Shown here one piece after another: positions 18,134-59,803 of a DNA stretch of 64,000 nt. The DNA is from Candidatus Woesearchaeota archaeon. Lineage in GTDB: Archaea; Nanobdellota; Nanobdellia; Woesearchaeales; JACPBO01. A model generated the notes under the pieces. The model searched no databases and was not told the DNA's origin. It saw only the letters and a list, made by a program, of their open reading frames with translations. The stretch spans positions 62,001 through 126,000 of the forward strand of contig JAUSCS010000013.1 in the NCBI GenBank assembly GCA_030651135.1, in the 5' to 3' direction. Position 1 is the stretch's first letter. Each line of letters starts with the position of its first letter. Made by a program: the position numbers and the translations under genes.

Positions 18134-18201
18134 ATTCGTCACCTCTTTTTAAGATTCAGCATATTTGGCGTTAAGTATATTTAAATATTTGCATAAAAAT
18201 G

Positions 18202-18270
18202 TCAGAATTTTCCATCCAGTCTTTGACTGGTGGCGGAAAGCCAACATTTTTCGTATGTTGAAAATTCTGA
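18202..18270. repeat. Nested-hairpin element B1
   Basis: An 11-bp perfect closing stem (TCAGAATTTTC at 18202-18212 with GAAAATTCTGA at 18260-18270) encloses three hairpins: CCAGTC/GACTGG (18216-18230), TGGC/GCCA (18231-18243) and CAACAT/ATGTTG (18242-18260). The fold resembles a small cloverleaf. It lies between divergently transcribed genes, followed by the palindrome GCATGC and element B2. Confidence 0.7.
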
Positions 18271-18276
18271 GCATGC

Positions 18277-18341
18277 TCAAAAACCACCTGATGCTGCAAA
18301 CAGCAGCGACATGCCACCCATCTGTGATGGGTGGTTTTTGA
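18277..18341. repeat. Nested-hairpin element B2 with alternative terminator-like hairpin
   Basis: A 12-bp perfect closing stem (TCAAAAACCACC at 18277-18288 with GGTGGTTTTTGA at 18330-18341) encloses TGCTG/CAGCA (18292-18305). A mutually exclusive 9-bp hairpin, CCACCCATC/GATGGGTGG (18314-18334), ends in T5 like an intrinsic terminator. The element sits just before the TATA-like TTTTTTAAATAG of L21e. Confidence 0.7.
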
Positions 18342-18379
18342 CAGAAAGTTTTTTAAATAGGCTGGCTTTCTCCAGCATT

Positions 18380-32914: not shown

Positions 32915-33163
32915 AAAAAAACACCACCACTGACGCAGATGCGACAGGGGTTGCCCCTCAAGTTTTTAGCAAAAACTTGGCAAAAACATATGAGGCATAA
33001 AGCCTCATGCCACGACCAGATTGTTTTGAATGCTAGTCGTGGCGTGGAGTTTCATGCTCCACATTGCGTGCCAACTGAGCGTAACCAGTTGCGGGATGCC
33101 GCATAGGGCAAAGCGAACGTAGTGAGCTTTGACCGTCTGCTGTCAGTTGTGGTGGTGTTTTTT
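32915..33163. repeat. Nested-hairpin element D, about 250 nt
   Basis: A 15-bp closing stem, AAAAAACACCACCAC (up to 32930) with GTGGTGGTGTTTTTT (33149-33163), is continued by TGACGCAGA pairing with TCTGC-T-GTCA. Inside are at least six hairpins: AGGGG/CCCCT (32946-32958), CAAGTTTTT/AAAAACTTG (32959-32979), ATGAGGC/GCCTCAT (32990-33008), GCCACGAC/GTCGTGGC (33009-33043), GTGGAG/CTCCAC (33044-33062), and further stems to 33131. It lies 31 nt past the 3' end of tRNA-Pro. Its first 44 nt match element E. Confidence 0.85.
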
Positions 33164-59577: not shown

Positions 59578-59689
59578 GAAAAACACCACCACAACTGGCA
59601 GCAGACGGACATTTTCTCACAAAAATGTCCTGCGAGCCACCCCGTAAGGGACAACCCCCGTCTCGCCTGCGCCAGTGGTGGTGTTTTTC
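59578..59689 (-). repeat. Nested-hairpin element E
   Basis: A 15-bp perfect closing stem, GAAAAACACCACCAC (59578-59592) with its complement at 59675-59689, is continued by ACTGGC/GCCAGT and GCAG/CTGC. Inside are a 9-bp hairpin GGACATTTT/AAAATGTCC (59607-59630) and a GCGAG/CTCGC stem (59632-59666) around CCC-GTAA-GGG. Read on the minus strand, its first 44 nt (59688 down to 59645) match the first 44 nt of element D at 37 positions without a gap, and it also resembles element F. It lies 40 nt upstream of the adenosyltransferase start. Confidence 0.85.
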
Positions 59690-59696
59690 CTCGAAT

Positions 59697-59803
59697 AAAA
59701 AATCCAGCCATGGTGCCTACGAGGGAGGGGTTGCTCCCTACGGGAAACCCGAGTAGGACAAAACTTGTTTTGTCCGTAGGCACCATGGTTGGCTGGATTT
59801 TTT
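59697..59803 (+). repeat. Nested-hairpin element F
   Basis: A 25-bp closing stem (59697-59721 with 59775-59803, one 4-nt bulge, ends AAAAAATCCAGCC and GGCTGGATTTTTT) encloses three hairpins: AGGGAG/CTCCCT (59722-59739), CGGG-AAA-CCCG (59741-59751) and GGACAAAAC/GTTTTGTCC (59756-59775). The shape is a long-stemmed cloverleaf. It begins 7 nt after element E, in the opposite orientation, and ends 39 nt past the stop of the ribonucleotide reductase gene. Confidence 0.87.

Follow-up and report, generated by a model that had tools for sequence, protein, structure and literature searches.

An apparently undescribed family of folded intergenic repeats in Woesearchaeota and related Nanoarchaeota, probably mobile DNA

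The window analysed here is a stretch of 64,000 nucleotides on contig C13 of a 1.4-Mb DPANN genome (G000), assigned to Candidatus Woesearchaeota. Three blocks in it, D, E and F, lie between genes and are closed by perfectly complementary arms, at the places given by an earlier, sequence-only reading. A tRNA-Pro gene is found directly upstream of D, and E and F together form one head-to-head composite between two minus-strand genes; their opposite orientation had been noticed earlier, as a property of two separate blocks. The features are as follows, motifs and tags being read from the sequence.

32915..33163, plus strand: element D, 249 nt, a long variant with its P2 arm enlarged by an insert of ~150 nt that carries further hairpins
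32916..32930, plus strand: 5' arm of the D outer stem, complementary to the 3' arm at 15 of 15 positions
33149..33163, plus strand: 3' arm of the D outer stem, pairing with 32916..32930
33103..33137, plus strand: ATAG tag, hairpin P3 and CGTC tag of D, the tags tallied over 51 copies
59578..59689, minus strand: element E, a standard 112-nt unit of the AAAAACACCACCAC subfamily, covariance model score 97.7 bits
59578-59592 and 59675-59689, minus strand: closing arms of E, perfectly complementary
59604..59633, minus strand: GCAG tag, hairpin P3 and CGTC tag of E
59697..59803, plus strand: element F, a standard 107-nt unit of the AAAATCCAGCCA subfamily, covariance model score 100.7 bits
59697-59710 and 59790-59803, plus strand: closing arms of F, perfectly complementary
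59727..59733, plus strand: conserved GGGGTTG motif of P2 in F, supported by column conservation across copies
59753..59778, plus strand: GTAG tag, hairpin P3 and CGTA tag of F, in line with the tag tally

Direct comparison of D with E gave 37 identical positions among 44 ungapped ones, as first reported. Folded as RNA, the blocks were far more stable than expected by chance (z = -8.7 for D, -7.2 for E and -7.8 for F), and no shuffled control equalled them. The same held for E and F folded as single-stranded DNA of either strand (z = -7.6 to -10.0; no shuffle as stable). In all three blocks the G+C stems are closed by A-tract/T-tract arms, giving a U-tract on either strand. No terminal inverted repeats (TIRs) are evident for D, E or F.

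A plain DNA search with E alone retrieved more than ten further places in G000 (best E = 2e-14). Fifteen G000 units follow one plan, and the common structure was traced manually on them. An outer stem is followed by a short bulge on the 3' side, an inner stem and a junction of two arms, P2 and P3. P2 comprises a conserved GGGNNG followed by CCC-TAC-GGG (in general form GGGNNG..CC..TNCGG), with tandem G.A/A.G in many copies. P3 is a hairpin of variable length. Among 51 distinct copies it is tagged on the 5' side by GTAG (31), GCAG (9) or ATAG (6), and on the 3' side by CGTC (36) or CGTA (12). The nested-hairpin plan ascribed to the three blocks is real, and is now refined to outer stem, inner stem, three-way junction and a GTAG/CGTC-tagged hairpin, with D as an enlarged variant. 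Adjacent pairs lie in the order minus-then-plus (about 25 pairs counted by eye, no exception seen), so that their 5' arms meet and are often common to both units.

A covariance model was built from ten G000 units, E and F among them. Searched against the G000 assembly it gave 17 strong matches, while D (at G000:C13:95064-95163) and a paralogue of D were matched weakly because P2 is enlarged in both. Further hairpins, set into P2 or next to the core, were also seen at L310/L346 (G242:C29), L057 and L064, as in D, as if elements nest. Two other repeats were observed on the contig of the window. A dispersed repeat of ~150 nt at window positions 18197-18343 (G000:C13:80197-80343), non-coding by eye and unrelated in sequence to D, E and F, is commoner, G000 having about 30 copies, complete or incomplete, at 73-98% identity. 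Outside the window, G000:C13:142377-144164 holds a tandem array of six similar blocks at 315-bp spacing.

Matches to the model came from 15 of 40 relatives and, across the order, from 95 of 288 genomes, in dozens of families. The highest copy counts were 40 in G004 and 25 in G006, and many near-complete genomes had none. The 288-genome run scored 12 candidates per genome, and its copy counts are therefore lower bounds. With about 20 copies in the 1.4-Mb genome and many more beyond it, D, E and F belong to one repeat family, as had been proposed. The P2-plus-tag pattern alone, searched in 85,000 species genomes, gave 60 stretches, 57 of them in DPANN records and nearly all of these in Woesearchaeota or Nanoarchaeota; viral contigs gave no match to the P2 pattern. 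Of the other three, one lies in a Thioploca bin and two elsewhere (Pirellulales and Acidimicrobiia). The full model fits the DPANN stretches, a few of them in part or at low score, as well as the Thioploca one; it does not match the Pirellulales and Acidimicrobiia loci, which were taken as chance. The Thioploca stretch (L179, 1976-2090), on a contig of 4.2 kb in the Thioploca sp. bin, scores 86 bits as a complete member of the family; it is most simply explained as a misplaced archaeal contig, otherwise as a cross-domain transfer. In Rfam no family scored above its gathering score, the only matches being tRNAs and others at chance level, and no description of the family was found in the literature searched, which took in few subscription journals. 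As far as these sources reach, the earlier statement that no named archaeal element has this plan holds, and the family is real and apparently undescribed.

Copies of the family differ in presence between close relatives. D differs from its paralogue at G000:C6:531139 at about 8 of 247 positions (~97% identity), and the similarity ends at the outer stems, the two being alike only from stem to stem. G001, a congener of G000 at ~88% identity, lacks D and the units at C13:151107, C6:16761, C6:68839 and C6:301921 at the orthologous places. Five further units are present in G001 and absent from G000, which brings the presence/absence units to ten; the E/F pair and the pair at C10:146558 are common to both genomes at the orthologous place. 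The polymorphic stretches take in 5-50 nt of flank and flanking direct repeats in G000 and G001 are no commoner than chance, so that single cases may be losses. A 12-bp candidate target-site duplication (TSD) at G000 C6:16761 (GCTTTCGGTTTT) stands alone and was not generalised; in G154, G148, G107 and G004, TSDs were likewise not above chance. A different TIR candidate, TGTWAAGTRAAMTTTT, occurs beside three GCAC-type units of G000. One orthologous site holds a GCAC-type pair in G000 (C6:664203) and a CCAG-type single unit in G001 (C5:91238); with different subfamilies at one place, some sites look like repeat targets.

Clear marks of insertion were found in another genus, g171, represented by G242 and G252. 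There the family core and its outer stems are embedded in units of 183-341 bp that have GCTTCATCCAAAAATT at one end and its complement at the other; these 16-bp TIRs are also written GCTTCATCC. Allowing at most one mismatch, the GCTTCATCCAAAAATT motif gave 52 matches, mostly in inverted pairs, compared with 3 for the reversed control. Seven units are flanked by exact 9-bp direct repeats at a fixed offset one base outside the TIRs (TGTTAATTT, CAAACTAAT, TTAGTATTA, GAAAAAGTA, CAAAAGGAA, TCAACATTA and TAGATTTAC); three more show an 8/9 match, and in the others none is visible. A target duplication of fixed length is the footprint of a staggered cut, as made by DDE transposases. One 112-bp unit, L339, lacks the core yet has the ends, the arms and a perfect TSD; transposition in g171 may therefore not require the core. 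No long g171 unit with a transposase was found, and other family copies in G242 and G252 are without such TIRs. An apparent solo arm remnant was seen at one G252 site. At L262 ~980-1190 (G242:C5) a tRNA gene has its 3' end (AATCCCAGCAGCCACCC) duplicated ~120 nt downstream, adjoining a family copy, in a manner that resembles attachment-site duplication. The MITE-like character first suggested for the blocks is supported by copy number, by presence/absence between congeners and by TIRs with 9-bp TSDs in this genus. Empty sites are found between congeners, and TSDs in G242/G252, with G000/G001 at chance level.

The fold itself shows strong covariation. In an alignment of the P2-pattern stretches, fitted to the covariance model, two-sided changes occurred in 30 of 34 pairs (520 cells compared with 152 in shuffles), and the signal was lost when the pairing partners were slid. 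The outcome named earlier as refuting the family, a lack of both additional copies and covarying stems, was thus not obtained. The stretches had been picked by P2 sequence, and the outer stem, P1 and P3 found there are therefore independent confirmation. With three special pairs left out, the outer stem, inner stem and P3 were Watson-Crick in 90% of cells, G-U in 2.7% and A-C in 1.4%. By comparison, G-U made up 9.7% in the stems of 19 tRNAs, taken from G000 and from the loci of the aligned copies. Pairing is thus kept with little use of a pair that RNA permits and DNA forbids. This is indirect evidence: such a composition would follow from correction between the arms of a DNA palindrome or from selection acting on folded DNA, while more G-U would be expected under an RNA constraint.

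These figures bear on the suggestion that the family is an amplified structured non-coding or cis-regulatory RNA, its fold selected in RNA and its copies regulating neighbouring transcripts or acting in trans. The strong covariation, the conserved loop motifs, the conserved tandem G.A pairs in P2 and a slight excess of G-U over A-C (36 compared with 19), as expected from an RNA strand, all agree with it. Nevertheless, G-U lies far below the tRNA level, Rfam holds no match, and presence/absence between congeners would be out of keeping with such a role. Nor is there a fixed polarity: at 43 sites with called neighbours on both sides, taken from simple ORF calls rather than curated genes, 27 gene pairs were co-directional, 14 divergent and 2 convergent. 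Among 104 neighbour genes no Pfam assignment recurred more than twice, the neighbours being unrelated single genes. Of the structured RNA proposed earlier, the covarying fold stands, and an RNA role is unlikely on the count of G-U pairs, orientation and neighbours. The family behaves as mobile DNA rather than as a regulatory RNA or a terminator.

Mobility raises the matter of the enzyme. G000 has a single Y1 (IS200-like) transposase gene, L028 (G000:C6:161234-161614), within an IS200-like unit with its own ends, unlike those of the D/E/F family, and not between family copies. No Y1_Tnp match was found in G001, G004, G034, G027 or G037, each with 10-40 copies, and RAYT/Y1 (PF01797) was rejected as resident mobiliser, as its presence does not track copy number. 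An autonomous copy with its arms split by a gene was sought on the three large G000 contigs; none was found. TIR-like sites 803 bp apart at L326 proved to be a broken unit beside an unrelated gene, and the few IS1595 (PF12762) and DDE_Tnp_1 (PF01609) genes in eight genomes have ends unlike the TIRs. No autonomous relative with matching ends was found in the genomes and transposase families searched; these covered a part of the IS families, and the result is compatible with a MITE.

A REP/BIME system, in which GTAG/CGTC-tagged palindromes are moved by a RAYT (Y1, HUH) transposase, is considered improbable. The GTAG and CGTC tags at P3 (31 and 36 of 51), the exclusively head-to-head dimers and the one Y1 gene of G000 speak for it, the same tags and dimer bias defining REP superfamilies (PMC3733652). 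The five Y1-free genomes with 10-40 copies and the separate IS200-like unit of the G000 gene speak against it. A 9-bp TSD does not fit Y1 transposase chemistry, and the g171 units are at odds with it on this count too. Bidirectional transcription terminators or insulators without mobility, which would explain the U-tract on either strand of D, E and F and recall the elaborate terminator considered at first, are very improbable, since 2 of the 43 sites lie between convergent genes compared with 14 between divergent ones, and GCAC-type and G034-type copies have no U-tract.

The blocks are probably copies of a lineage-specific, non-autonomous family of mobile DNA that is found in Woesearchaeota and their relatives among the Nanoarchaeota and works in the manner of MITEs or REP/BIMEs. 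The copies are dispersed, share a covarying fold, have their boundaries at the outer stems and vary in presence between congeners, and in g171 they were inserted with TIRs and TSDs. Each unit is a long palindrome whose outer stem, bulge and inner stem close a three-way junction with P2 and P3 as its other arms, P3 being tagged 5' by (G)TAG and 3' by CGT(C/A). Such units may be mobilised by a transposase acting in trans, which most hosts have lost or never carried. The core may persist because, as a cruciform or single-stranded hairpin, it has a role as folded DNA in mobilisation or replication; TIRs and outer stems, by contrast, would turn over between lineages. Pairs such as E/F would arise as head-to-head dimers with 5' arms common or abutting. 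The core may serve as a folded recognition site, or be a passenger whose presence aids survival. Counting against mobile DNA are the transposase that was not found and the flanking repeats at chance level in G000/G001 and four other genomes, as well as fold conservation over an order, which is more than MITEs usually show.

A bolder and more tentative form of the mobile-DNA reading holds that an undescribed archaeal enzyme, acting on folded DNA, recognises the three-way-junction core and its GTAG/CGTC-tagged hairpin. The core would then be the real mobilised or mobilising module, conserved across the order, with TIRs and outer stems exchanged, and the g171 MITE would have arisen when a DDE transposon captured the core.

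Although DPANN genomes are small and regarded as streamlined, the family occurs in a third of the genomes sampled from the order, some of which have 20-40 copies. It offers a way to study repeat dynamics in Woesearchaeota, and an example of a mobile element conserved in its folded interior, not its termini. With the covariance model, the polymorphic sites and the TIR/TSD units in hand, the reason for this conservation is now testable.

Among known systems, integron attC sites are also imperfect palindromes able to fold as single-stranded DNA, but the D, E and F arms are by eye without RYYYAAC/GTTRRRY boxes, and the copies are scattered rather than set in cassette arrays. The subterminal hairpins of IS200/IS605 share a folded hairpin with a tetranucleotide at its foot; here, in contrast, no transposase gene lies between copies and the whole unit is closed by a long stem. 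ERIC is an enterobacterial intergenic repeat of ~127 bp, also palindromic, dispersed and structured; its host group differs, and the two are set apart by description rather than by sequence. We know of no ERIC three-way junction with a tagged hairpin.

Closer likenesses are found with REPs and MITEs. REP superfamilies carry GTAG or CGTC tags and form head-to-head dimers; CGTC REPs have no known transposase, and some REPs lie inside larger palindromes (PMC3733652). A survey of bacterial and archaeal REPs published in 2025 makes no mention of Woesearchaeota, DPANN or Nanoarchaeota (PMC12306157). Like REP/BIMEs, the present family consists of extragenic palindromes with GTAG 5' and CGTC 3' of P3, in head-to-head dimers. 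It differs in its units of ~110-250 nt with a three-way junction, compared with a single REP hairpin of 20-40 bp. In addition, a single hairpin bears both tags, several genomes with many copies have no RAYT, and one genus shows a TSD. As in MITEs, the copies are short, non-coding, dispersed and intergenic, and in g171 they have a 16-bp TIR and a 9-bp TSD. Unlike in MITEs, it is the folded interior rather than the termini that is conserved; other lineages have different TIRs or none, and no parent IS was found. The family falls outside the REP/RAYT definition, and only in g171 does it show a TIR and TSD like those of a MITE; in the way it works, it is like a MITE or a REP.
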